Under the pieces are notes generated by a model. It was not told the origin of the DNA, searched no databases, and saw nothing but the letters and a program-made list of their open reading frames with translations. Shown one piece after another: positions 177 to 55,514 of a stretch of 55,514 bases of DNA. The DNA lies in IMG/VR virus record IMGVR_UViG_3300036781_000044, positions 1-55,514 of that record. The stretch is one strand, 5' to 3'. The stretch comes from a virus. The first letter of the stretch is position 1; every line of letters begins with the position of its first letter. The position numbers and the translations under genes are program-made.

Positions 177-491
177 GACGAACTGTTCTTGTTTGTGGGG
201 GCCGACAAGATACGGCATCATCGCATCGACATAGATGATGTACCGGCAGAAACTCGTCTTCGCCAGTCGTTCACATGTGATTTCTTGCAGGCGTGGGCTG
301 TCGAAATGCGGCGTCGCGTGCTTGACTTCCCACCACGATGTTTTGTTGCAGACGTTGAACGTAAAATCAGGCGTGCCGCCCTTACGCACGTCTTGAATGG
401 GCACGATGAGCGGCACGTATGTCGCGCGTGGTACTTCAAGCACGTCGAATAAGTCTTGTTTGAGCGGTGTTTCTCGTTTCGCGATTCTCAC
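36..491 (-). CDS. PD-(D/E)XK-fold nuclease, possible junction resolvase or recombination nuclease
   Basis: 151 residues. The core signature is visible: GTPD at 39-42 (Asp42), then WWEVKH with Glu55 and Lys57, then a helix with Gln69, in the order typical of VRR-NUC and Hjc-like members of the PD-(D/E)XK superfamily. These enzymes cut DNA with two metal ions held by the Asp and Glu. The gene is coupled by ATGA overlaps both to the DUF4406 gene upstream (488-491) and to the sliding clamp downstream (36-39), so a role in replication or recombination is the best inference. The substrate, whether branched DNA, ends or host DNA, cannot be read from sequence. Confidence 0.7.
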   Translation of the reverse strand: MRIAKRETPLKQDLFDVLEVPRATYVPLIVPIQDVRKGGTPDFTFNVCNKTSWWEVKHATPHFDSPRLQEITCERLAKTSFCRYIIYVDAMMPYLVGPHKQEQFVVILDPKHVARKHGKLDRLVMCSEADVVIGNFDHEKVADAIWSVHTR

Positions 492-826
492 GATTGCACG
501 CTCTGTGACATGCGAATCAAGCCGCGGGCGTCAGCGGTGTAATAGAAAATCTGCAGTCCGAGGGCGAGCGCGATGCTCAATTCAAGCGTCGCACCCTTCG
601 ACGCCGGATAGCCTGCGAGCAGGATGATCGCGTCGCAGTCGAGCAGCAATCGGATGTCTTCTTTGAGATGATCGGCCCATGACTTGTTCGTGTCGTTCTC
701 GGACTCTTTCTCGTGAGGCGAAACGATTGTCAGGCCTTCTGATCGGAGCAGCGTGCATGCGAGCGTGAACGCTGGGAAGTTGTATTGCGGGTAGCCCGTC
801 ATTGGGCCAGACAGATAGTATTTCAC
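488..826 (-). CDS. DUF4406 / nucleoside 2-deoxyribosyltransferase-like protein
   Basis: 112 residues from a GTG at 824-826. I prefer this start because the upstream gene ends at 828, leaving a one-base gap, and GAGG lies six bases ahead of the GTG; a longer reading from 865 would overlap that gene. The N-terminus YYLSGPMTG is the hallmark of DUF4406, a Rossmann-like family related to nucleoside deoxyribosyltransferases, and the C-terminal part (GATLELSIALALG) fits the same fold. Phage members are common beside nucleotide metabolism genes. Their activity is unproven, so a nucleotide-salvage role is inference. Confidence 0.75.
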   Translation of the reverse strand: MKYYLSGPMTGYPQYNFPAFTLACTLLRSEGLTIVSPHEKESENDTNKSWADHLKEDIRLLLDCDAIILLAGYPASKGATLELSIALALGLQIFYYTADARGLIRMSQSVQS

Positions 827-827
827 G

Positions 828-1025
828 TCACGCCTCGTCGTTGGGATCGTTGAAGATGAACTCAAGACACGGAAACGTCAAAATCGCGCCATTCTCAAAA
901 TGAATGACGACAAACGGATCGCCCTCTTCATCTGCGTCAGACTGTGTGATATCGACGACGCGTAACCCGATGCAGCCGCCAATGACTTCACGAATGTTCT
1001 TGTAATCGCCGTCTGGCACGCTCAC
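828..1025 (-). CDS. Small hypothetical protein
   Basis: 65 residues, acidic, with alternating hydrophobic strands (VVIHFENGAILTF) suggesting a small beta-rich fold. I do not recognise a family. The start overlaps the stop of the upstream gene by four bases (1022-1025), and its TGA sits one base ahead of the GTG of the DUF4406 gene, so it is a member of the leftward operon. Confidence 0.65.
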   Translation of the reverse strand: MSVPDGDYKNIREVIGGCIGLRVVDITQSDADEEGDPFVVIHFENGAILTFPCLEFIFNDPNDEA

Positions 1026-1281: not shown

Positions 1282-4200
1282 TTATTTCGCTTCAGCCCAA
1301 CTTTTCCCTGTCCCGACTTCCCACAAGATCGGCACGGCAAGATCGAACGACTGCTCGTTCAACAGCGCACTGATCTTGTTCGCGGTTTCGACGTCAGGCA
1401 CGTCGCCGCAGATTTCATCGTGAATCGTCATGCGCATCGTGAACCCAAGCTCTTTGCGCATCTTGTAAAGCTCGACGAGCTTTGTTTTCATGATGTCAGC
1501 CGCGCTGCCTTGAATCACGGCGTTCAGTGCTTTGTGGATCTTGAAATCGTTGGGGAAACGTGAGCGACGCCCGAGCATCGTTTTCACATATCCGCGATGC
1601 TTGAACTTGCGATGCAGTTCGTCAGCCGGATTGCACCACTTGTTACAGCTAGACATCGCCAAGTGCATGGCGCGTCGCAACAAGGGTTTGACTTCTGGCA
1701 TCTCACGCGCGTAGATCGCATCGACTTCACGTGCAGGCGCGAGACGCGGATCGCTCGACTGCGTTTCAGCCGCCGTGATTTGATTGCCTTCGTCTTCTGT
1801 AATGAATCCCATCATGACGGCGGTCTTGACGATACCGCCGCCATAGATGCGCATGAAATTGAAATTCTTCATGCCTGAATACGACAGATCAGGCTTGCGC
1901 GGCTGCATGATCGCATACATGAACTTGTGAAAGTTCATGTCCGGTTTCTTCTTGTAAGCGTCGAGCACGCGCTTATTTTGCGCACGACTCGCGAACAAGC
2001 GGTATTCGATCTGTGCCGCGTCACCGGCGAGAAATAGACCGCTGCCCGCGATGTAGAGTTCACGCGGGAAATAGTCGTCACCAAAATCACGCGTGTGATT
2101 GTCGTGATTCGGCACTTGCTGAATGTAGGGCGCAGAGAATCGTCCGCTGACGGTACCGCGTTTTCCCTTGTCATCGTCGATACGTAGTTGATGAAGCTCG
2201 AATCGCAGAATGCCATTGTGATCAATCACGCTGGGATACGCGTTGAACACTTTGCTTCGCAGTGAATCAAGCTGGGCGGCGAATCGCGCTTTGACCACCG
2301 TCGGATGCGTCATGCGTGCGAGCAGCGCATCTTTCGGGCGCTTCGCTTTGAACTCGGGAACTGCGAGTGCAAACCGCTCGAAAAGACGCTGCCACGACTG
2401 CGCGCTATCATCGAACGTGAAACCGGCCTCGGACGAAATCTCTTTGATGAGCCGGAAGTAATGTGCTTCTGACGCGTCTGACATGCGCTTGAATAGCTCC
2501 ATGTCGAGCGGCGCGCCGTTCTTTTCCATCTCGCAGACGATCGGGATCACGGCGTCTTCAAGCGCGCGAACTTTTTGGAGTTCTTGTTCGTCGAGGAGCG
2601 GCCACATGGCAGCTTTGAGTTCTGCTACCGTATTAACGTCACCCTCAGCGCGGACGGCGACTTCTGCGGGCGTGTAATGCGCCATGCGGGTCGGGTCGAG
2701 ATCCATCCCGGCTTTCTCACGACCGAGGAAATCTTTCGCCAGTTCGTTCAGTGCGAAGCGTTTACGATGATCGTCGAGCAGCGCCGCGTAGTGCATGACG
2801 TCGCTGAACTCGCAGCCAAGCTCTGTGAGATCGGCGCCCCACTCGCGCGACATGTGGATATCGAATTTGATGTTGGCGTTCGTGATGCGCTTACGTTTGA
2901 CTTGTTCGTTGAACCAACGACGCATCACATTTTCGTCGAGGTTATCAGGACTGCCCTGATGGCCCCACGGGAAATACTTGCTGCGTCCGTTCCAGCGAAC
3001 AGCCGCGCCAATGGGCTTGTCTTTGCCGTTGAGCCATTCAAGCCCGTTAGTCTCAAAGTCAATTTCGAGGTCATTGACGTTATCAAGAATCGGTGGATCT
3101 TCACGTCGCCACGTCTCGCGCGGTACCGGCTGTTCGCCCAAGAATTGGATCAGCGACGTCGCTTTCGGCGTTTCATCGACTTCAGGGAACGGCGGCACCA
3201 TCACGAGCAATGCGTCACGATGTTCGCGCAGTAAGTCGCGTTCTTCATCGGTCAGCGTGCTCGATTTCGTCACCATCAATTTGCCGCGCTTGTCGTAAAT
3301 CGCATGCTCGTTTGCGGCCAGTCGCGCAATCACGTCAGCAGGCGTCAACTTCGGCACAACGCGCTCTAACGTCTCTGACGCTTGCTGCGCGATCATCTTC
3401 AGCAGATCCGTGTTGATGACAGGCGCGTTGATGTTGACGTGGAGTTCTTGCACCGTGGTGTCAAAACTTTGACTATTGATGAAGTCGAGCGCAGACGGTA
3501 CAGCGGGCTCGACGATGCGCGGGGCGGGTTCTATGACGTCTACAGCGTCGAGCGTCGTTGGATCGAAGCTGACGTCGCTGTCGCCCGGTTCGCTCGTCTC
3601 AGCGTCGTCAGTGACGTCAGACACGCGCTCGGGCGTGACAAGCTCGACAGGCAAATCCTCTGGTAACACAAGCGTGCCTGATTTCTTCACTTCATAGAAC
3701 GTCTCGCCCTCGCCTTGCTTGCCGAGGCCGTTACTCGCACTCAAGCGATCTTTCTGCTTGCATACATCGTATTTGCCGTCAGCGATGGCCGCAAGACGCT
3801 CGTTGAGCGGATACAGACGACTGCCAATGTTGATAATGAAGACGCCGCCAGGCTTCAACGCGCGCATCGTGCGATGAATCAACGGCGCGTAGAAGCCGGC
3901 GCACCACGCATCGAACGTCGCATAGCGGTTGCCACTGCTCGTCTGCTCACCAGGCGCATACCATTCAGTGTCGTAATACGGCGGTGACGTCATCGCGAAA
4001 TCGAACGTCTCGGCAGGTAGCGTGACATCCTCGAAGGGCGATGGATGTATCGTGGCGTTGAACGTGCTACGAAATGACTGGATGAACGCGAGTAGTTGTG
4101 TGAGTCCCGCGACAGTTTTTGTGGAGGGCTCGCAACACGTGTAAGAGTTAACGACAGCGGAGAATCCGAGCATGCGACCGCCCCAGCCGGCACAGGGATC

Positions 4201-4686
4201 GAGCACATGACAATGCTTGTTAAGGCCGTATTCTTTGGCGAGATCACGAGCCACATGTGGTGGAAACTCCTGCACGTATGACGTGCCCTGCACGCCCATG
4301 CCGATCGACGCGTAGAGCAAGTCTTTCGTGTTGCCTTTCTTCTTGTTCAGCAGCACGACACGTGCGAGTCCACGCACGAAGCCGGGATCTTTCAACGCTT
4401 GATACAGACTGATCGGGAAACGCTTCGTGCCGGTGTCGAGACGATGCGGATTGAACATCAATGAGATGCGTTGTCCGCTGCGTTCACCGGCACACAGATT
4501 CGCGTATTCGACCACAGCGTCAAATCGATTCGTCAACAGCGCGGCAAACTGCGGCACGCTGATGTCTTTTAGCTGGGTATGCAACGCAAGCGCGAGCGCG
4601 TCACGCGAGATGTCGGCGCCTGAGACCGCGGTGATCTCGTCGCCAAAGAGGTTGGTATCGGTGTCGAGTGCGACGGTATCGGTCAT
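1282..4686 (-). CDS. DNA amino-methyltransferase / TubC-like / DNA polymerase I fusion
   Basis: 1134 residues in one uninterrupted frame. Residues about 20-345 form an AdoMet-dependent DNA methyltransferase: motif I DPCAGWGGR (163-171) and catalytic SPPYYD (234-239), the arrangement of N4-cytosine or N6-adenine enzymes. Residues 346-400 are an acidic linker. Residues about 447-498 resemble a TubC N-terminal docking domain (LTDEERDLLREHRDALL). The rest is a proofreading family A polymerase: exo I DFET (Asp543, Glu545), exo II NANIKFD (603-609), exo III Asp683 with the usual Tyr replaced by Arg679, polymerase motif A DAAQIEYRLF (889-898), an O-helix with Lys940, Phe944 and Tyr948, and motif C HDE (1089-1091). 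The residue matching Klenow Arg754 is Tyr936. Its ATG overlaps the stop of the upstream nuclease-like gene. It is presumably the phage replicase. Methylation of nascent DNA by the attached domain is inference. Confidence 0.9.
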   Translation of the reverse strand: MTDTVALDTDTNLFGDEITAVSGADISRDALALALHTQLKDISVPQFAALLTNRFDAVVEYANLCAGERSGQRISLMFNPHRLDTGTKRFPISLYQALKDPGFVRGLARVVLLNKKKGNTKDLLYASIGMGVQGTSYVQEFPPHVARDLAKEYGLNKHCHVLDPCAGWGGRMLGFSAVVNSYTCCEPSTKTVAGLTQLLAFIQSFRSTFNATIHPSPFEDVTLPAETFDFAMTSPPYYDTEWYAPGEQTSSGNRYATFDAWCAGFYAPLIHRTMRALKPGGVFIINIGSRLYPLNERLAAIADGKYDVCKQKDRLSASNGLGKQGEGETFYEVKKSGTLVLPEDLPVELVTPERVSDVTDDAETSEPGDSDVSFDPTTLDAVDVIEPAPRIVEPAVPSALDFINSQSFDTTVQELHVNINAPVINTDLLKMIAQQASETLERVVPKLTPADVIARLAANEHAIYDKRGKLMVTKSSTLTDEERDLLREHRDALLVMVPPFPEVDETPKATSLIQFLGEQPVPRETWRREDPPILDNVNDLEIDFETNGLEWLNGKDKPIGAAVRWNGRSKYFPWGHQGSPDNLDENVMRRWFNEQVKRKRITNANIKFDIHMSREWGADLTELGCEFSDVMHYAALLDDHRKRFALNELAKDFLGREKAGMDLDPTRMAHYTPAEVAVRAEGDVNTVAELKAAMWPLLDEQELQKVRALEDAVIPIVCEMEKNGAPLDMELFKRMSDASEAHYFRLIKEISSEAGFTFDDSAQSWQRLFERFALAVPEFKAKRPKDALLARMTHPTVVKARFAAQLDSLRSKVFNAYPSVIDHNGILRFELHQLRIDDDKGKRGTVSGRFSAPYIQQVPNHDNHTRDFGDDYFPRELYIAGSGLFLAGDAAQIEYRLFASRAQNKRVLDAYKKKPDMNFHKFMYAIMQPRKPDLSYSGMKNFNFMRIYGGGIVKTAVMMGFITEDEGNQITAAETQSSDPRLAPAREVDAIYAREMPEVKPLLRRAMHLAMSSCNKWCNPADELHRKFKHRGYVKTMLGRRSRFPNDFKIHKALNAVIQGSAADIMKTKLVELYKMRKELGFTMRMTIHDEICGDVPDVETANKISALLNEQSFDLAVPILWEVGTGKSWAEAK

Positions 4687-5270
4687 GAACTCAAACCAGA
4701 AATTTGTCTACGCAAGCTTGCTGCTCGTTTTTCAAGTCGAGCGAGTCGATCCTGTGGCGTCATAGGCAAAGATTGCCTCACGCTTGAAAACAGTAGTTGA
4801 ATGTTTTCACTTGCCGCGCTGCGTACCAGACTACGCGCGTTGGATCTCCTGATGCGCGGGGAGAAGAAAGCATCTTGCGCCGCCCATAAGATCCAAATAA
4901 AGCGTATGACAGAACCTTCTGCGTAGTTAACAACGATGTAGTTTTCCCCATTGACGATCTTCGACTGATTGATCGTCAATCCAGCGCCCTTACAGATTTT
5001 CACTTCCCAATCGCGTTCATGCCTGCACAGATCGCAATGTCCATTGCCTTTTGTGAATGATCCGCAGTGCTGCACAATCGCTTTCTCGATTTTCTCTGAC
5101 AGATCGCGTGCAATGACACCAGCAGACGGCGGCGTGAAGCCGAAATCCTCGAAAATCGGTCCCACCTTCACGTATAGATTTTTGAGTTTTCTAAACGTCG
5201 AATTGACAGCAGAGATGATGCCTTCGTTTTCATCAAGCGTCAACGGACGATACGAAGGTGGCAGGTTCAT
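4683..5270 (-). CDS. Putative PD-(D/E)XK (restriction-like) nuclease with a Cys-rich insert and coiled C-terminal tail
   Basis: 195 residues from the ATG at 5268-5270, two bases after the stop of the upstream gene; a reading from 5405 would overlap that gene by 130 bases. A helix (SEKIEKAIVQHC) is followed by CDLCRH and then DWEVK (Asp87, Glu89, Lys91), which matches the metal-binding core of PD-(D/E)XK nucleases, and then by strands (YIVVNY, IRFIWIL). The last 26 residues (TPQDRLARLEKRAASLRRQ) are nearly the same as the tail of the protein at 7078-7548. It overlaps the methyltransferase-polymerase start by ATGA, so the two are coupled. A nuclease call rests on the motif alone. Confidence 0.55.
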   Translation of the reverse strand: MNLPPSYRPLTLDENEGIISAVNSTFRKLKNLYVKVGPIFEDFGFTPPSAGVIARDLSEKIEKAIVQHCGSFTKGNGHCDLCRHERDWEVKICKGAGLTINQSKIVNGENYIVVNYAEGSVIRFIWILWAAQDAFFSPRIRRSNARSLVRSAASENIQLLFSSVRQSLPMTPQDRLARLEKRAASLRRQISGLSS

Positions 5271-5272
5271 GC

Positions 5273-5494
5273 TCAGTCTAATTCGACTTTCTTCCCGCTG
5301 ACGATCCGCGTCCCGCTGCTCGCTTTGAGATGCGCTGTGGGCGAATACCCGAAGAACAGCGACTCGTCGCACGTCGCGCAGCGATATCGGCCGGGCCCTA
5401 GCCACTGCAGCGCGCCGCCGCAGTCAGCATGACGCATCGGCGCGCGCTCGCGTCTGACGAGCTTGTGTTCGATTCGTGGCGCTTTATCTGTCAT
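5273..5494 (-). CDS. Small zinc-ribbon protein
   Basis: 73 residues from the ATG at 5492-5494, chosen because it follows the upstream stop by one base. The central part has HADCGG and CATC about 17 residues apart, a plausible zinc knuckle or ribbon, then a basic C-terminus (GTRIVSGKKVELD). No specific family is recognised. Such proteins usually bind nucleic acid or protein, and its operon places it with replication genes. Confidence 0.6.
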   Translation of the reverse strand: MTDKAPRIEHKLVRRERAPMRHADCGGALQWLGPGRYRCATCDESLFFGYSPTAHLKASSGTRIVSGKKVELD

Positions 5495-5495
5495 G

Positions 5496-5738
5496 TCAGC
5501 GCCGATCGTGATCGAAATTGCGCGGCGGATTCTCACGCTCCGGCACGTCACGCATCGAACGACGTGCCGCCATCATCTCATCCGCCAGTTGATACGCGGT
5601 CAGCGCGACCCACGCGAGACGAAGATCGAGATTCTGACGTTCACTCCACTTATGGATCAATTCGCGCATCGCATCACGCGCAATGTCGTCGCGTAACTTG
5701 AGGTCGTTAACGATGCCGTCACGATCGAAAGGTGGCAT
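5496..5738 (-). CDS. Small hypothetical helical protein
   Basis: 80 residues starting MPPFDRDGIV at the ATG 5736-5738, which has AGGAG four bases upstream. A longer frame to 5984 lies over the PLP-enzyme gene and has the Arg/Ser-rich composition of a shadow. The protein is mostly helical and charged. I do not recognise it. Confidence 0.65.
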   Translation of the reverse strand: MPPFDRDGIVNDLKLRDDIARDAMRELIHKWSERQNLDLRLAWVALTAYQLADEMMAARRSMRDVPERENPPRNFDHDRR

Positions 5739-5745
5739 AACACTC

Positions 5746-6432
5746 CTATGCCGCGACGTTCCAAAACAACGCGCCGGGTGACGCATGCTGCTTGACGATG
5801 CGCCACGCTTTGGCATCGAACTCGGGCATTGACGGGAACGGCGGCGGAAAACGTGCTGGTTGATCGAACGCTTCGTCAGCGGTGTAAATCGTCGCTTTGC
5901 CTGCGTCAGGATGATGTCCAACTTTGACGCCGTAAAACGTCGCATCAGGCCATGCCATCTGCAGCGCGCGGGTGAGAGTGCCACTACTCGCGATGCTCCA
6001 GACTTCTGTTGGCTGAACAGGCAGCTTCATTGCGACGTCAGCGAGTGCCAAGAGAAACATGGGAGCGTCGAGCCCAAACGGCAGTAAGCGAGCGCCATAC
6101 TCTGCGCAATACGCCCGCGCTTTTGCCGTCACGTTGCTCAACATGCCGAACGGCACTTCCACGATCGTGGCGCCAGCTTCAATCGCCCGCACTGTCAGCG
6201 GCGCCAGTATCTTGCGTTTCGCACAGAAGATCGTCGCGCGTTTCCCCTGCTCGCGACACGTATGCGCGAGTGCGACTTGTGCGGCGCCGAAGACAGGCGA
6301 CGCGTAGACATACTCGTCGTGCTGATGATCGAGAAAGACCCACAGCGCGCGACGCTTCGTGCCGCCTGGAATTAAGTCGTCACGCACGACATAAATGTTG
6401 TCGTGTAGTTCGATTACAGGCTCAGGCAGCAT
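5746..6432 (-). CDS. PLP-dependent enzyme, fold type II (ACC deaminase / cysteine desulfhydrase-like), short form
   Basis: 228 residues. The start (VVRDDLIPGGTKRRAL) matches the PLP-lysine region of 1-aminocyclopropane-1-carboxylate deaminase and D-cysteine desulfhydrase relatives, with the Schiff-base Lys expected at residue 26. SPVFGAAQVALAH occupies the place of the substrate-binding loop, and WSIASSGTLTRAL that of the glycine-rich phosphate loop. Family enzymes are about 330 residues, so this is a compact version. It overlaps the upstream SLOG gene by 19 bases and has GAGG ahead of its ATG. Its reaction in a phage is unknown; sulfur, amino-acid or base-modification chemistry are all possible. 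Confidence 0.75.
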   Translation of the reverse strand: MLPEPVIELHDNIYVVRDDLIPGGTKRRALWVFLDHQHDEYVYASPVFGAAQVALAHTCREQGKRATIFCAKRKILAPLTVRAIEAGATIVEVPFGMLSNVTAKARAYCAEYGARLLPFGLDAPMFLLALADVAMKLPVQPTEVWSIASSGTLTRALQMAWPDATFYGVKVGHHPDAGKATIYTADEAFDQPARFPPPFPSMPEFDAKAWRIVKQHASPGALFWNVAA

Positions 6433-6899
6433 GCGTCCTCTTCGATGTTTTTACGGGTCCAGATCCACTGATACAACGTATCTTGCGTCAAGTAGATCAG
6501 CGCGCCGTCAGGCACGACGATCCACGCACGACGTTTCGCGCGCATCGCATAGCGCACGGTCGCCCACGTACCAGAACGCAAGATTGGATGTTCTTGTGCA
6601 GGTGTCGCGACGAGTCGCGCGCAATCGTTGACGATGTATTTGTTACGAACGAGTGGCGCGAACGCCGTAAGCCGGTAATCTCCCGGCTGCAGCGGACAGA
6701 CGCCGCGTTGTTTGTGCGTTGAGGGGTGCTCGATGATTTGTGCGTCGAGTGATTGTGCTATCTCGTGGGCTTGCTCGTCAGCGCCTGGCGCGCCGCCATG
6801 ATGCAAGACAGAAATGCCAAAGCGTTGAAAGACGCGCAGCAACGTGTGACGTTGTGCGGGTGTCATGCCTTGACGCGTTCCTGTGAACCCGATGACCAT
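6414..6899 (-). CDS. SLOG-superfamily Rossmann protein (DprA/LOG/YspA-like)
   Basis: 161 residues from the ATG at 6897-6899, which has GGAG five bases upstream; a GTG six bases earlier is possible. The N-terminal GFTGTR, the GGAPGADEQAHEIA loop and SGTWATVRYA are the nucleotide-binding features of the SLOG fold. SLOG proteins bind nucleotides or nucleotide-derived signals and also include DprA. This one ends inside the PLP-enzyme gene, suggesting the two act together. Confidence 0.75.
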   Translation of the reverse strand: MVIGFTGTRQGMTPAQRHTLLRVFQRFGISVLHHGGAPGADEQAHEIAQSLDAQIIEHPSTHKQRGVCPLQPGDYRLTAFAPLVRNKYIVNDCARLVATPAQEHPILRSGTWATVRYAMRAKRRAWIVVPDGALIYLTQDTLYQWIWTRKNIEEDACCLSL

Positions 6900-6926
6900 T
6901 AGCACTCCGACGACGAAGAAAAATGA

Positions 6927-7077: not shown

Positions 7078-7548
7078 CTAGCTCTGCGTCGCGGCGATCT
7101 TCGCGCGCAGCTTCGCGGCGCGTTCCTCGATCTTCGCGAGCTTCTCCGCGGGCGTCAGCTTCGGCGCGTTCGCACGTGCCGCCTTGCGTTCCTCGGCCGT
7201 CATCGTCGCACGCGTCTTGCGCGGTTCTCCGAACTGATCGCTGTCGAGCGTGAACGACGCGGGGCCCGTCTTGTCGGCGAAAAACGACTTCGAGAATCGC
7301 ACGCTGCCAGCGTAGCCGGCGACGTTGTAGGTGACGGCATTCGATTTGCGCTGCTTATCGTTGCGCACAAGGGACAGATTCATGACCTTCGACTCCTGTG
7401 TCTGCGACGTCGCTTCTGACGTCTGGGAAAGTGCGTCGTTCTGCGACGCGTCTGTTGACGGGGCTGACTGTACCGGAGCGTCGCTCGTCTTGTCAACGCT
7501 CTTTTTCGATTTCTTTGGCTTCGCGGACGTCGCTTTCTTCACGCTCAT
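7078..7548 (-). CDS. Hypothetical basic protein with Lys/Ser-rich N-terminus and coiled C-terminal tail
   Basis: 156 residues. Residues 1-55 are low complexity (Lys, then Ser/Thr/Gln/Asp), residues about 70-105 form a compact segment (NAVTYNVAGYAGSVRFSKSFF), and the last 27 (TPAEKLAKIEERAAKLRAKI) form a charged helix shared with the nuclease-like protein at 4683-5270. GGAG precedes the ATG by nine bases. Function unknown; the shared tail suggests a common binding partner or pairing between the two proteins. Confidence 0.7.
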   Translation of the reverse strand: MSVKKATSAKPKKSKKSVDKTSDAPVQSAPSTDASQNDALSQTSEATSQTQESKVMNLSLVRNDKQRKSNAVTYNVAGYAGSVRFSKSFFADKTGPASFTLDSDQFGEPRKTRATMTAEERKAARANAPKLTPAEKLAKIEERAAKLRAKIAATQS

Positions 7549-8714: not shown

Positions 8715-9860
8715 TTAACGAAGTCGTTTGGGTGACGCCGCGCTCGTGACTGCGCGGCGTCCGAGTGTCATCGCATTCGCCGCCGCTTTGCCGCGGGCGA
8801 CGCCTTCACTGTTCGTGCTTCGACCACTGCTCAGCGCGTTCGCGCCGCTACGACGCGACTTGAACTTGTCGTCGATATAGCTCTTGACGCGCGTCAGCGC
8901 GCCGTCGAGTCGAATCAACGCCTGTGACTCGCTGCCTGCAGGCAAATCGACGACGACTTCTGCGACGGCGGCTTTACGTGCGTCGTCGAAACGCTCTGCG
9001 ATGCGCTGTGTGAACGACGTGAGCCACGATTCACGAAAGCCGTTGACACCCTTCCAGTGTCCGTCGCGCTTGAAGCACTCGTGGCCGTAGCGGTACTTCT
9101 CTTTGATGCTCATCGTGTTCGCGGCAGGGATGAGCGTGCCGAAGACGTATTCAGCGACCATCGCATGGCTGCGCGTGCCGACGAACCAGATTTGATTACT
9201 GCCTGGGCGCAGCAAGAACGAGCAGAGATGCGCTTTCGCGACGATGCGCGCGAGGGCTTCTTGCCACGCGACGCGCGTTTTCTTCGCATCAATCGCATAC
9301 TTCGACAAATCTACCCGAAGCTCGACGATCGGATCGTCGTCAGCCGCACGCGCGTAGTCGAGATCGCTGGGACGCAGTTCATATTCGACCAACATGCGAT
9401 TGATCGCGGAGGCGAACGCCTCAGCCGCCTCAGTGTTGCCTAGCTCAGCTTCGCTCTGACGCGCACGCTGCATTTTGACAAGCTTGTCGATGATCTTCGC
9501 TTTGTGATCGGGCGTGCGAAGATTGTCCATCGCTTGCACAAGTTCCATGAAGAACTCGTGAAACGCGGCACCGTGATTCAGGTGCTTCAAGTGCGCGAGT
9601 TCGTGTGCCGCTGTGCGCCAGACGTCTTCTGGCGAGCGCGGATGCTCGACGAACTGTCCGTCGACCGTCGCGCGCATGACAAGCTCGATCTCGCCTGTCG
9701 AAAAACAGCGACCGAGAAAATCAGACATGCCCGCTTTCGGCATGTGCGCAGGGCGAATGCTCTTGAGCGGCAGCGCGTAGCGCGTCGCGATCGTGCGCAT
9801 CGCGTCAGCGACTTCGTTGAAGAATAGCAAGTCGTCGGGATGCAGATTCGGGATGCTCAT
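8715..9860 (-). CDS. Zinc metalloprotease (HExxH) fused to DUF2786/DUF7168-like domain
   Basis: 381 residues from the ATG at 9858-9860, which overlaps the upstream stop by four bases. The N-terminal domain contains AHELAHLKHLNHGAAFH with zinc ligands expected at His86, His90 and about His96, like SprT/WLM-type peptidases. Residues about 150-310 contain the DUF2786 segment (INRMLVEYELRPSDLD) and the aromatic-rich block that follows it in phage homologues (HMVAEYVFGTL-like, then FRESWLTSFTQRIAERF). The C-terminus is basic and low complexity. A role in processing or DNA-protein crosslink repair is only a guess from the SprT resemblance. Confidence 0.75.
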   Translation of the reverse strand: MSIPNLHPDDLLFFNEVADAMRTIATRYALPLKSIRPAHMPKAGMSDFLGRCFSTGEIELVMRATVDGQFVEHPRSPEDVWRTAAHELAHLKHLNHGAAFHEFFMELVQAMDNLRTPDHKAKIIDKLVKMQRARQSEAELGNTEAAEAFASAINRMLVEYELRPSDLDYARAADDDPIVELRVDLSKYAIDAKKTRVAWQEALARIVAKAHLCSFLLRPGSNQIWFVGTRSHAMVAEYVFGTLIPAANTMSIKEKYRYGHECFKRDGHWKGVNGFRESWLTSFTQRIAERFDDARKAAVAEVVVDLPAGSESQALIRLDGALTRVKSYIDDKFKSRRSGANALSSGRSTNSEGVARGKAAANAMTLGRRAVTSAASPKRLR

Positions 9861-10063
9861 CGCGCACCGCCTTGAAGCTGAGTGAGCGTCTGACGACGCA
9901 GCGCAGCGCGCACGCGGGACGACATCGCGCGTGTCTGCTCGACGGCGCCCCACAGGGCGCGCATGTGTGTATCGAACGTCTGACGTGAGATGAGACCGCG
10001 CATGTAGCGGTCAGACGTGCTGTTGAGCGCGGCGACGAACTGCGACGACGTTGGGCGCTTCAT
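9857..10063 (-). CDS. Small basic hypothetical protein
   Basis: 68 residues, Arg-rich and helical, no recognised family. It overlaps both neighbours by four bases (ATGA at 10060-10063 and 9857-9860), which is the main evidence that it is real. Confidence 0.65.
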   Translation of the reverse strand: MKRPTSSQFVAALNSTSDRYMRGLISRQTFDTHMRALWGAVEQTRAMSSRVRAALRRQTLTQLQGGAR

Positions 10064-16733: not shown

Positions 16734-18196
16734 TGCCGGTTGATACGCCGCGTGCTGATTACTCCGCGATGCTGCCGAAGTGGCAGCGTCTCCGCGATTG
16801 CTTCGATGGACGTGACGCGATCTTGGCACGTGGGCCCGTCTATGCGCCTGACTTACCAGGTGCGGACAAAGCCGCGAATCTCGCGTATCGACTGCGCGGG
16901 AACTTTTACAACGCGACGTCGCGCACAGTCGGCGGCATGAATGGGATGATTTTTCAAGAGTCCCCCAACGTCACGATCCCTGAGAGTGAGAGTGCGCTAC
17001 TCGACGACATTACGTTGACGAACGTCTCTTTTGAGTCGTTCTCAACGATGGTGGGCTCCGAAATTTTCACGATGGGACGTTACGGCGCGCTCATCGACAT
17101 GCCGACGCAGCCGACTGAAGCTGGCGCGCTGCAGCGTCCCGACGTCGATATGCGCCCTTACGCCATCGCGTATCGTGCAGAAGACATCGTGAATTGGCGC
17201 ACCGAGCGTCGCGGCGGCGATCAAGTGCTGACGATGGTCGTCTTGCGTGAGATCGTCGAGATTCAAGACGCTGAAGACGCGTTCAAACTCAAGCAAATTT
17301 GCCAGTATCGCGTCGTTATGCTGAACGGTACCTCATGCGTCGTGCAGTTGTGGCGCGAAAGCACTGAAGAATCGAAAGAGTATCGCAAGTTCAGTGAAAC
17401 GACGTTGATGCGACGCGGCGAAGCGTTGAGCTTTGTGCCGTTCGTTTTCTTCGGCCCGTTGTCGCCGTCTCCCGATCTTGCTGCACCGCCGTTGATCGAT
17501 CTCGCTGACGTAAATCTTGGACACTGGCGAAACTCAGTCGATTACGAACATGGATTGCATCTCGTCGCGCTGCCCACGCCATGGCAAGCTGGCGGCAAGG
17601 GTGGACCTGACGACGGCCCAAAGAAAATGGGGCCGTCAGTCGTCTGGGAATTGGAAGTCAACGGTAGCGCCGGCATGCTCGAATTTACGGGCGCTGGCCT
17701 TGACGCGATTGCGGCGGCGATGGAGGAAAAGAAAAAGCAGATGGCGACTCTTGGTGCGCGTCTGCTTGAAGACGCGCCAACGGTGGGCGAGACGGCTAGC
17801 GCGGTGAAACTGCGACACAGCGGAGAAACGGCGTCGCTGAAGACAATCGCGCAGAGTTTGGAAGAAGGGCTTGTCCAAATGCTGCAAATTTGCTTGTGGT
17901 GGCAAACGACTGAAGCGAAGCCCGCTGACGTCGAAGCGGAAGTGGAACTCAACAAAGAATATCTGAACGTGCGCGCGACGCCGCAAGAAATTCAAGTCGC
18001 GTTGACCGCCCTGCAAGCGGGTGAGATGAGTTTCGAGACATGGTGGAACCTGCTCACGACCGGCGGCTGGGCGCGCGAGGGTGTTGACGCCGATCAAGAG
18101 CAGAAAGACATCGCGAAACGCAAGGTCGATGTTACGCCGCCAGATCCAAATCTCGACCCGAACTTGAACCCGAACCCGGTGCCGCCGCAACGATGA
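16733..18196 (+). CDS. Portal protein, DUF4055 type
   Basis: 487 residues from the ATG at 16733. LIDLADVNLGHWRNSVDYEHG and the following LPTPWQAGG match the DUF4055 family, which forms the portal ring at the capsid vertex. The C-terminus is Pro/Asn-rich (DPNLDPNLNPNP). The placement directly after terL and before the MuF-like gene is standard for head modules. Confidence 0.85.
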   Translation: MPVDTPRADYSAMLPKWQRLRDCFDGRDAILARGPVYAPDLPGADKAANLAYRLRGNFYNATSRTVGGMNGMIFQESPNVTIPESESALLDDITLTNVSFESFSTMVGSEIFTMGRYGALIDMPTQPTEAGALQRPDVDMRPYAIAYRAEDIVNWRTERRGGDQVLTMVVLREIVEIQDAEDAFKLKQICQYRVVMLNGTSCVVQLWRESTEESKEYRKFSETTLMRRGEALSFVPFVFFGPLSPSPDLAAPPLIDLADVNLGHWRNSVDYEHGLHLVALPTPWQAGGKGGPDDGPKKMGPSVVWELEVNGSAGMLEFTGAGLDAIAAAMEEKKKQMATLGARLLEDAPTVGETASAVKLRHSGETASLKTIAQSLEEGLVQMLQICLWWQTTEAKPADVEAEVELNKEYLNVRATPQEIQVALTALQAGEMSFETWWNLLTTGGWAREGVDADQEQKDIAKRKVDVTPPDPNLDPNLNPNPVPPQR

Positions 18197-54125: not shown

Positions 54126-54307
54126 TTCGTGTCCTCTTTCTTCGGCGGTTCGATCGCGCTCAGCGGCACCCAAATGGTCACCTCGACGAACGCGCCATCG
54201 TTCATGGGTGCGACATTCCCAATGCCTGTGTAGCCTTTAGAGCGCACGAACTCGCGATACTGTTCCATACGACGTTTGATGACTTGCCGTTCGTCGTAGA
54301 TGTTCAT
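54122..54307 (-). CDS. Small hypothetical protein downstream of the clamp
   Basis: 61 residues, Tyr/Arg-rich helix at the start (MNIYDERQVIKRRMEQY) then strands. Overlaps the clamp stop by ATGA. Family not recognised. Confidence 0.65.
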   Translation of the reverse strand: MNIYDERQVIKRRMEQYREFVRSKGYTGIGNVAPMNDGAFVEVTIWVPLSAIEPPKKEDTK

Positions 54308-55377
54308 AGACGTACCGCCATTGCGACAGTAATGAAGTTCTGTCCGTCTGCGAGTAGCACTGCGGCTGACGGCCCGCCCATTTTCATCTCAATCGACGCG
54401 TTGTCAGCGCAGTCGAGAAAATCAATGATCGCTTGCGCTTGCACGTTGACGCGCGTCGCAGGACCAGCGTAGGTGACGGCGACGTTTTCAATCGCATCGC
54501 CAAGTTCGTTGTTCTTCGCTTGCACTTGCAGAATGCCGTCACTGACGCTGAAGTTGACGATCTTGGTATCACCAGCAACGGCTGACACCCGTTTCAGCGC
54601 CGCATTGAGCGCGTCCCGCGGCGCCGTCACGATCATGTGATTCGACTGCGGGATGATGCGCTGATAGTTTGGGAACTGCCCGTCAATCATGCGTGACGTG
54701 ATCGTAGCGGCGTCTGTCGAGAAAAAGAGCACATTGTCACTGTGCGAGAAGCCGTAATCGTCAGCGTCGTCTGCGATTAGATTCTCGATCAGCTTCGTCG
54801 GCAGAATGACTTGATACTGCAGCGGATCGCCGGGAAATGCGCCTGTCGCGACTGCCAGCCGTTTGCCGTCTGTCGTGACGAGTGCGAGTGTGTTCCCTGA
54901 CAGCACCAAGAGAGCGCCGTTGATGTTGTATCGCTTCTCGGTCGCTGAGATGCAGGGATGCACGTTGCGCAACAACTTACGTAGCAACGCGCCATTGATG
55001 AGCGTGCTTTTGCCTGCAGGCGCGCTCAAGACCGGGAACTCTTTCGCGTCGAGAGCCCGCAAACTGAGTTTGAATTGACCTGACGCGACACGCACGCCGT
55101 TTTTCTCTGCGATCAAACGCACGTCGGGTTCTGTGATCTGACTGATGATGTTGAGCAGCGGCTTACACGGCAGCGCGACATGTCCCGCCATCTGAATCGT
55201 CGCGGCGCAGTCACGTGTCAGACTCAATTCGGTATCTGTCGCGCTCAATCGCACTTGCCCCATTTCGGCGTGGATCAGCACATGCGACAAGATCGGCAGT
55301 ACCGCTTTCGTTGGCGTCAGTTTGTCGAGTCTGCGCAATGCGTCAGTGAGCACGCTTGACGAAATCGAAATGTTCAT
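54304..55377 (-). CDS. dnaN: DNA polymerase III beta-type sliding clamp
   Basis: 357 residues, close to the usual 366. The three-domain beta-clamp pattern is clear: LPILSHVLI, RDCAATIQMAG, DAKEFPVL, ATEKRYNINGALL, DGQFPNYQRIIPQ and the terminal MAVRL, which matches MPMRL at the end of bacterial clamps. It tethers polymerases to DNA. Pairing with a family A polymerase in the same operon is noteworthy. The start lies inside the terminal repeat. Confidence 0.93.
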   Translation of the reverse strand: MNISISSSVLTDALRRLDKLTPTKAVLPILSHVLIHAEMGQVRLSATDTELSLTRDCAATIQMAGHVALPCKPLLNIISQITEPDVRLIAEKNGVRVASGQFKLSLRALDAKEFPVLSAPAGKSTLINGALLRKLLRNVHPCISATEKRYNINGALLVLSGNTLALVTTDGKRLAVATGAFPGDPLQYQVILPTKLIENLIADDADDYGFSHSDNVLFFSTDAATITSRMIDGQFPNYQRIIPQSNHMIVTAPRDALNAALKRVSAVAGDTKIVNFSVSDGILQVQAKNNELGDAIENVAVTYAGPATRVNVQAQAIIDFLDCADNASIEMKMGGPSAAVLLADGQNFITVAMAVRL

Positions 55378-55514
55378 CGCGTATGCACACTCCAGATCGC
55401 GTCTGCGACTTTCTCGTGATCGAAATTACCGATCACGACGTCAGCTTCACTGCACATAACGAGCCAATCAAGCTTGCCGTGCTTGCGCGCGACGTGCTTG
55501 GGATCGAGGATGAC
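55339..55514. repeat. Terminal direct repeat, right copy
   Basis: Repeats 1-176 with one mismatch (55466 A against 128 G). It contains the start of the clamp gene and the end of the nuclease gene; the unique genome is about 55338 bases. Confidence 0.95.

Follow-up and report, generated by a model that had tools for sequence, protein, structure and literature searches.

A family A DNA polymerase with an N-terminal methyltransferase: a putative viral replicase carrying a tethered, exchangeable DNA modifier

The DNA of phages is usually modified either on the nucleotides before synthesis or on the finished DNA by separate enzymes. In the IMG/VR virus record IMGVR_UViG_3300036781_000044 (positions 1 to 55,514; this whole stretch of 55,514 nucleotides is called the window) one gene encodes a methyltransferase domain and a family A DNA polymerase in the same chain. 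Parts of this arrangement are found in described systems. The T4 enzyme alpha-GT co-purifies with the T4 sliding clamp gp45 (PMC13216743, which cites Sommer et al. 2004) and is the closest precedent; there too a phage DNA-modifying enzyme is physically linked to the replication machinery and has been proposed to act concomitantly with replication. However, alpha-GT is a separate glucosyltransferase which binds the clamp non-covalently, whereas in the window the methyltransferase lies within the polymerase chain. The DarB-type methyltransferase-helicase of phage P1 and its relatives also join a DNA methyltransferase to a DNA-acting motor and protect DNA in cis, although the partner in these polyvalent proteins is an SF2 helicase carried in the virion and no replicase is involved (PMC5512222). 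A further enzyme, of the TET-associated glycosyltransferase family (TAGT, PF20691), adds the second glucose in T2/T6 (PMC13216743). It is a stand-alone protein in those phages and is not found in the window, but it is N-terminal on sister polymerases of contigs L002, L014, L016, L055 and L111.

The fusion gene is an open frame of 1134 codons which fills positions 1282-4686 of the minus strand exactly; the initial annotation did not name the strand. Its ATG start at 4686 overlaps the stop codon of the frame that precedes it, in the sequence ATGA. Its parts are given below, with confidence expressed as the predicted local distance difference test (pLDDT) and lengths in amino acids (aa).

1282-4686, minus strand: whole fusion gene, 1134 aa, methyltransferase, tether, TubC-like domain and exonuclease/polymerase A in a single open frame
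4639-4659, minus strand: short motif DTNLFGD (residues 10-16) near the N-terminus, candidate beta-clamp-binding peptide
3676-4614, minus strand: class I amino-methyltransferase domain (residues 25-337), from the AlphaFold2 fold and PADLOC mad2
4174-4200, minus strand: methyltransferase motif I DPCAGWGGR (residues 163-171), putative S-adenosylmethionine binding, GxG and R171 invariant in the family
3976-3987, minus strand: methyltransferase motif IV SPPY (residues 234-237), putatively catalytic, invariant in the family
3355-3675, minus strand: disordered tether of about 105 residues (338-444), pLDDT about 30
3193-3348, minus strand: small TubC-like domain (residues 447-498), pLDDT about 94
3133-3156, minus strand: short motif SLIQFLGE (residues 511-518) directly ahead of the polymerase part, alike in most fused relatives
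2527-3099, minus strand: 3'-5' exonuclease domain (about residues 530-720), equivalents of the Klenow carboxylates present
1291-2493, minus strand: family A polymerase domain (residues 732-1132), Pfam DNA_pol_A

A structure prediction of the whole chain, proposed as a check in the initial annotation, resolved the methyltransferase, the disordered tether, the TubC-like domain and the exonuclease with the polymerase as separate parts. In this model exonuclease and polymerase together make up residues 521-1134, and a short linker separates them from the TubC-like domain, for which an alpha-beta-beta-alpha-alpha topology is predicted with high confidence. The profile TubC_N (PF18563) does not match the window, and its best match, in the TAGT-fused relative L002, reached 14.8 bits (E 0.031) against a curated cut-off of 26. 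No second polymerase was noticed among the open frames of the window that were scanned.

The same fusion is present in three other IMG/VR contigs with 59-69% identity, namely L001 (1134 aa), L010 (1147 aa) and L003 (504 residues, at the contig end), which together with the uninterrupted frame bears out the early claim that both enzymes are encoded in one frame. Between orthologues the methyltransferase domain is 73-83% identical, with rates of nonsynonymous (dN) and synonymous (dS) substitution of 0.16-0.23 and 1.2-2.1, and the polymerase is 64-71% identical (dN 0.24-0.30, dS 1.3-2.0); the tether drifts, with 14-35% identity. These rates indicate purifying selection on both enzyme domains, and a decayed or dispensable methyltransferase is ruled out by dN well below dS together with the invariant motifs. 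Because both domains are selected and the fusion recurs in other contigs, it is not an assembly error. The loss of a stop codon between two genes by a sequencing or assembly artefact would fit the fact that the stand-alone relatives of the methyltransferase terminate where the domain terminates, but it is scarcely credible given two full-length and one truncated orthologue from other assemblies, at this level of divergence and with the TubC-like domain conserved in the linker. Nor do the homologues always occur as two genes, the outcome that would have pointed to an artefact: the close ones are fused, and more distant ones are stand-alone or fused to ParB. In bacterial genomes the sole relatives were an unfused one in a Sulfuricaulis metagenome-assembled genome (43%) and a distant one.

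IMG/VR was searched with the polymerase part, and the start of each polymerase frame was inspected for an N-terminal module. Three kinds of module were found beside polymerases with no extension: the methyltransferase of the window (MTase-A, also in L001, L003 and L010), TAGT in the five contigs named above, and a second methyltransferase (MTase-B, in L030 and L042). MTase-B belongs to PHROG_498 (phage DNA methyltransferase) and the glycosyltransferase to PHROG_842, with PF20691 matching L002 at E 1.5e-40.

L002, 8663-12307: TAGT glycosyltransferase-polymerase A fusion, found also in L014, L016, L055 and L111

In a tree of 57 polymerase sequences (careful IQ-TREE run) the window falls in a clade of ten with 100/100 support, nine of which bear an N-terminal DNA-modification enzyme of one of the three kinds, while the tenth, L071, has about 100 additional N-terminal residues and no enzyme. 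Outside the clade, 45 of the 47 sampled relatives have no N-terminal module. The MTase-A polymerases form one group, MTase-B cannot be explained in the bootstrap trees by fewer than two changes, and L111, which bears TAGT, is placed far outside the clade. Moreover, the MTase-B domains are 81% identical and their polymerases 58%, and the TAGT domains of L013 and L111 are 65% identical and their polymerases 44%. As the modules are more alike than the polymerases that bear them, and given the tree placement, modules have been exchanged in evolution, and these comparisons indicate an N-terminal slot that is exchangeable among related replicases. The search for the same domain order suggested at the outset found it in three contigs, and found other DNA-modification enzymes at that position on sister polymerases. 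Separate versions also occur: several unfused relatives have TAGT as a separate gene, and in the distant L112 the polymerase (frame 3515-5926) bears the MTase-B N-terminal piece alone, the catalytic MTase-B and a gene of the PALP family being encoded separately on the same contig. Among the 50 polymerase contigs tested MTase-A was found only in fused form. The thymidylate-synthase family is present in none of the fused contigs and in four unfused contigs bearing separate TAGT genes; ThyX is present in three of the four MTase-A contigs.

AlphaFold2 predicts for the N-terminal domain, with 33 relatives in the alignment, a class I methyltransferase fold (pLDDT 86.5, predicted template modelling score (pTM) 0.86), and on this model the fold is a real one. 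GxG, R171, SPPY, E241, Y243 and N286 are invariant in the 33 aligned members, and the complete SPPY-type amino-methyltransferase announced by the initial annotation is thus confirmed in its motifs and fold. The Pfam profile N6_N4_Mtase (PF01555) matched weakly (E 0.013, or 0.0022 for the domain alone; 15.8-18.4 bits, under the curated cut-off of 26.7), and PADLOC matched the domain to mad2 (E 2e-15) as well as to methyltransferases of type II systems. A search of the open-access literature for MADS/MAD2 turned up only unrelated MAD2 reports. Sequence searches gave no convincing solved relative of the methyltransferase or of the pyridoxal phosphate (PLP) enzyme described below.

The family is widespread in viruses, with at least 511 confirmed stretches. 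Its closest non-fused members (40-52% identity) are stand-alone proteins of about 320-380 aa, and the next closest, of 450-520 aa, have an N-terminal part which looks ParB-like. Those from L148-L158, including Vibrio phage 2.058.O and Staphylococcus Twort-like phages, are mad2-like by PADLOC and share with the window the invariant GxG..R, SPPY, E241 and N286, but they are separate proteins or have the ParB-like part, in contrast to the polymerase fusion of the window. No fused polymerase was found in 15 contigs of these stand-alone or ParB-like methyltransferases, and one of the 15 has a separate polymerase gene nearby. L150 (3-3457) encodes a stand-alone methyltransferase of the window's family and, on the same strand and separated from it by a single small gene, a family A polymerase. 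A 485-kb uncultured phage (L141:1727-5416) has a related methyltransferase as part of a 1229-aa frame with stretches resembling LAGLIDADG homing-endonuclease repeats.

The nearest solved folds are Trm11, TrmI, METTL5 and TrmN (Z 16.5-17.8), with Trm11 at Z 17.8 over 181 residues and a root-mean-square deviation of 3.1. These enzymes act on nitrogens of RNA bases, and such matches to tRNA and rRNA methyltransferases would suit a domain which has host tRNA or rRNA as its target, or which serves in regulation, and which was joined to the polymerase incidentally. This explanation is improbable: the fold is common to NPPY-type amino-methyltransferases of DNA and of RNA, the PADLOC matches are defence and type II DNA methyltransferases, and sister polymerases bear a PHROG_498 DNA methyltransferase or a PHROG_842 DNA glycosyltransferase at the same position. 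The module swaps and the replicase context point to DNA as the substrate, and the N-terminal domain would then transfer a methyl group to an exocyclic amine of DNA.

In the polymerase half, DNA_pol_A matches residues 732-1132 (E 3e-31, 109 bits against a cut-off of 34.3), and the match to the phage polymerases of PHROG_17 begins at residue 515 (E 2e-67). With these polymerases, which have the Pol I/Klenow fold, the window shares the exonuclease and polymerase domains and the catalytic residues of palm and fingers. When mapped onto E. coli Pol I (Klenow), the equivalents of D705, E710, K758, F762, Y766, N845, Q849, H881 and D882 are all present, as are D355, E357, D424 and D501 of the exonuclease. 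The window differs from PHROG_17 polymerases in the added N-terminal modification enzyme, the tether and the TubC-like domain, and in having Arg in place of Tyr497 and Tyr in place of Arg754, the latter as in 26 of 46 relatives. In two MTase-A relatives the D424 equivalent is replaced by Glu, and several exonuclease carboxylates are gone in those clade members that are fused to TAGT or MTase-B. Proofreading by the window polymerase is plausible from these residues, and the exonuclease is decaying in the sister group. Hence the "complete proofreading polymerase" of the initial annotation stands as regards the polymerase catalytic residues and the four carboxylates, but not for the Tyr497 position, and relatives have lost more. 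Four of the five TAGT-fused polymerases do not have the full set of carboxylates, and L002 has a separate DnaQ-like exonuclease frame (17306-18133). A DpoZ-type aminoadenine polymerase was considered and rejected, since NF038380 was the best NCBIfam match but reached 187 bits against a cut-off of 500; no search was made for PurZ.

Upstream of the fusion gene lies the gene of a likely partner of the methyltransferase.

5746-6432, minus strand: putative PLP-dependent enzyme gene, PALP fold II-like, PHROG_7093 (E 8e-36)

The PALP profile itself matches weakly (17.6 bits in the window and 33.2 in L003, cut-off 35), and the motif GGTKRR, with the putative PLP-binding lysine, is invariant in seven sequences of this enzyme. 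Orthologues that are 60-71% identical accompany each of the five other methyltransferase-fused polymerases, whether of the A or the B kind, and in every methyltransferase-fused contig the gene lies upstream of the fusion gene at a distance of no more than about 1.5 kb. Five TAGT-fused and seven other polymerase contigs were searched and yielded no such gene. The resulting contrast, 6/6 against 0/12, has a Fisher p of 5e-5, which is a guide only because contigs may be incomplete, the genomes are related, and two of the seven, L098 and L062, probably stem from a single genome. In Erythrobacter phage R6L (L144) and Pseudanabaena phage Pam4 (L143:2494-4983) a PALP domain is found within the MTase-B chain, between the halves bearing motif I and motif IV; in Pam4 a ParB domain stands ahead of this chain. 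From the association and from the insertion in Pam4 and R6L, the methyltransferase and the PLP enzyme probably act together, and their end product may be more than a plain methyl group.

To our knowledge no chemistry has been described for such a pair of enzymes. No report of it was found in the open-access literature either. That the N-terminal domain and the PLP enzyme make a hypermodified base is a reading we regard as quite possible, if somewhat short of even odds; it leaves the modification tethered to the replicase and refines rather than excludes the explanation preferred below. In this reading the methyltransferase fold would activate or alkylate an exocyclic amine, a group derived from an amino acid would be supplied or processed by the PLP enzyme, and simple methylation would misdescribe the outcome. 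The link of the PLP gene with two different methyltransferase modules, the PALP domain inside the chains of Pam4 and R6L and the conserved lysine motif argue for hypermodification. On the other hand, fold-II PLP enzymes serve many unrelated purposes, and the gene, although present in the contig of the stand-alone MTase-A of L151, was not found in those of the stand-alone methyltransferases L148-L150 or of the larger ParB-like ones, which suggests that this family can work alone.

The window also encodes a candidate replication partner.

54304-55377, minus strand: phage-encoded beta sliding clamp, all three DNA_pol3_beta domains

A clamp is likewise encoded in L001 and L002. An xLF/xLY core occurs in 31 of 53 N-termini of related polymerases, fused or not, against 7.1 expected from shuffles, and in the fused proteins the xLF motif is ahead of, or at the start of, the modification domain. 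Several of these motifs read QPSLFD or QPALFD, a type which we take to resemble beta-clamp-binding peptides.

The explanation we prefer, with a probability of roughly two in three, is that an exchangeable DNA modifier is tethered to the replicase and marks nascent phage DNA, which protects it from host nucleases. The C-terminal family A polymerase would be the phage's own replicase and would copy the genome, probably held by the phage beta clamp, while the flexible tether and the TubC-like domain would keep the methyltransferase near newly made DNA. There it would modify an exocyclic amino group, so that progeny DNA would be marked during its synthesis and would resist host restriction or other nucleases; the separate PLP enzyme would participate with the methyltransferase kinds, and the finished modification may be something more complex than a methyl. 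The analysis shows the fusion, its intact motifs, its recurrence, selection on both domains, module exchange and the PLP association, and from these we infer catalysis, DNA as substrate, clamp tethering, action at the fork and protection. The initial proposal that such a protein would methylate DNA as it is made and protect progeny at the fork is in this sense partly supported, although the constant PLP partner suggests that the product may not be a plain methyl group. A bolder form, which is tentative, makes the replicase clade a chassis with an exchangeable slot in which the methyltransferase kinds and the PLP enzyme would install a new hypermodified base at the moving fork, so that unmodified progeny DNA would never be exposed.

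Several observations weigh against this explanation. The solved folds nearest the methyltransferase are mostly those of RNA methyltransferases, and the DTNLFGD of the window does not have the Gln of the canonical clamp-binding peptide. A search of the TAGT-fused contigs for a TET enzyme gave none, so that the glycosyltransferase has no evident substrate there. The close orthologue L098 (62% to the window polymerase) keeps the TubC-like piece but the methyltransferase is missing, and the polymerase can thus manage without it. The full-length model has a pTM of 0.62, in which the domains have no fixed mutual arrangement, and in T4 the share of glucosylation due to alpha-GT has been reported to depend mainly on something other than its binding to the clamp (PMC13216743). 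The last three points, together with the 45 unfused relatives outside the clade and those with stand-alone TAGT genes, would suit a methyltransferase that does act on DNA but whose fusion only secures co-expression, any phage DNA in the cell being modified and coupling to the fork being beside the point. We consider this unlikely, since different modifiers have repeatedly been joined to related polymerases at one position, which argues that the physical linkage itself was selected.

With regard to the rest of the genome, the record also encodes terminase, portal and tail genes, UvrD- and SNF2-type helicases, ThyX and a VapE-like helicase. The order in L001 (fusion, nuclease-like frame, clamp) equals that of the window only when the window ends (1-491 and 54304-55514) are joined, and the record is therefore probably a near-complete genome in circularly permuted form, although a search of the window for exact terminal repeats of 10-200 bases gave none. 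Upstream of the polymerase region a small gene (7078-7548, minus strand) has a conserved C-terminus (APKLTPAEKLAKIEERAAKLRAKI), and frames resembling it stand ahead of the polymerase in L010 (4803-5384), L030 (3306-3812), L002 (7863-8546) and L098 (2559-3347). A protein with WLM metallopeptidase and DUF7168 is encoded at 8715-9953 (minus strand), with likely counterparts near the fused polymerases of L002 (5755-6882) and L010 (3639-4793). A SLOG-like YAcAr protein (6414-6905, minus strand) and a DUF4406/nucleoside deoxyribosyltransferase-like protein (488-865, minus strand) are encoded close to the fusion gene, and a role of these two neighbours in nucleotide or DNA modification is possible.

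No polymerase-methyltransferase or polymerase-glycosyltransferase fusion was found reported in the open-access literature, and at the sensitivity used none of 50,697 isolate-phage records gave a match over at least 80% of the query, whether this was the fusion of the window, a TAGT-fused polymerase or an MTase-B-fused one. The initial annotation, which knew of no described phage replicase with a methyltransferase domain of its own, was right within these sources. The component families are already known, and what is apparently new is that base-modifying enzymes are joined to a replicase covalently and in exchangeable form. If true, a replicase with its own exchangeable modifying enzyme would be a third arrangement, co-synthetic modification, beside the two by which phage DNA is usually modified. 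The coupling of replication with modification becomes directly testable, as there is one polypeptide to mutate, to cut at the tether or to swap, and the unstudied partnership of methyltransferase and PLP enzyme could make a new DNA base. The fusion would also offer a model from nature for enzymes which combine the copying and the marking of DNA, and phages of this kind may mark their own DNA while copying it.

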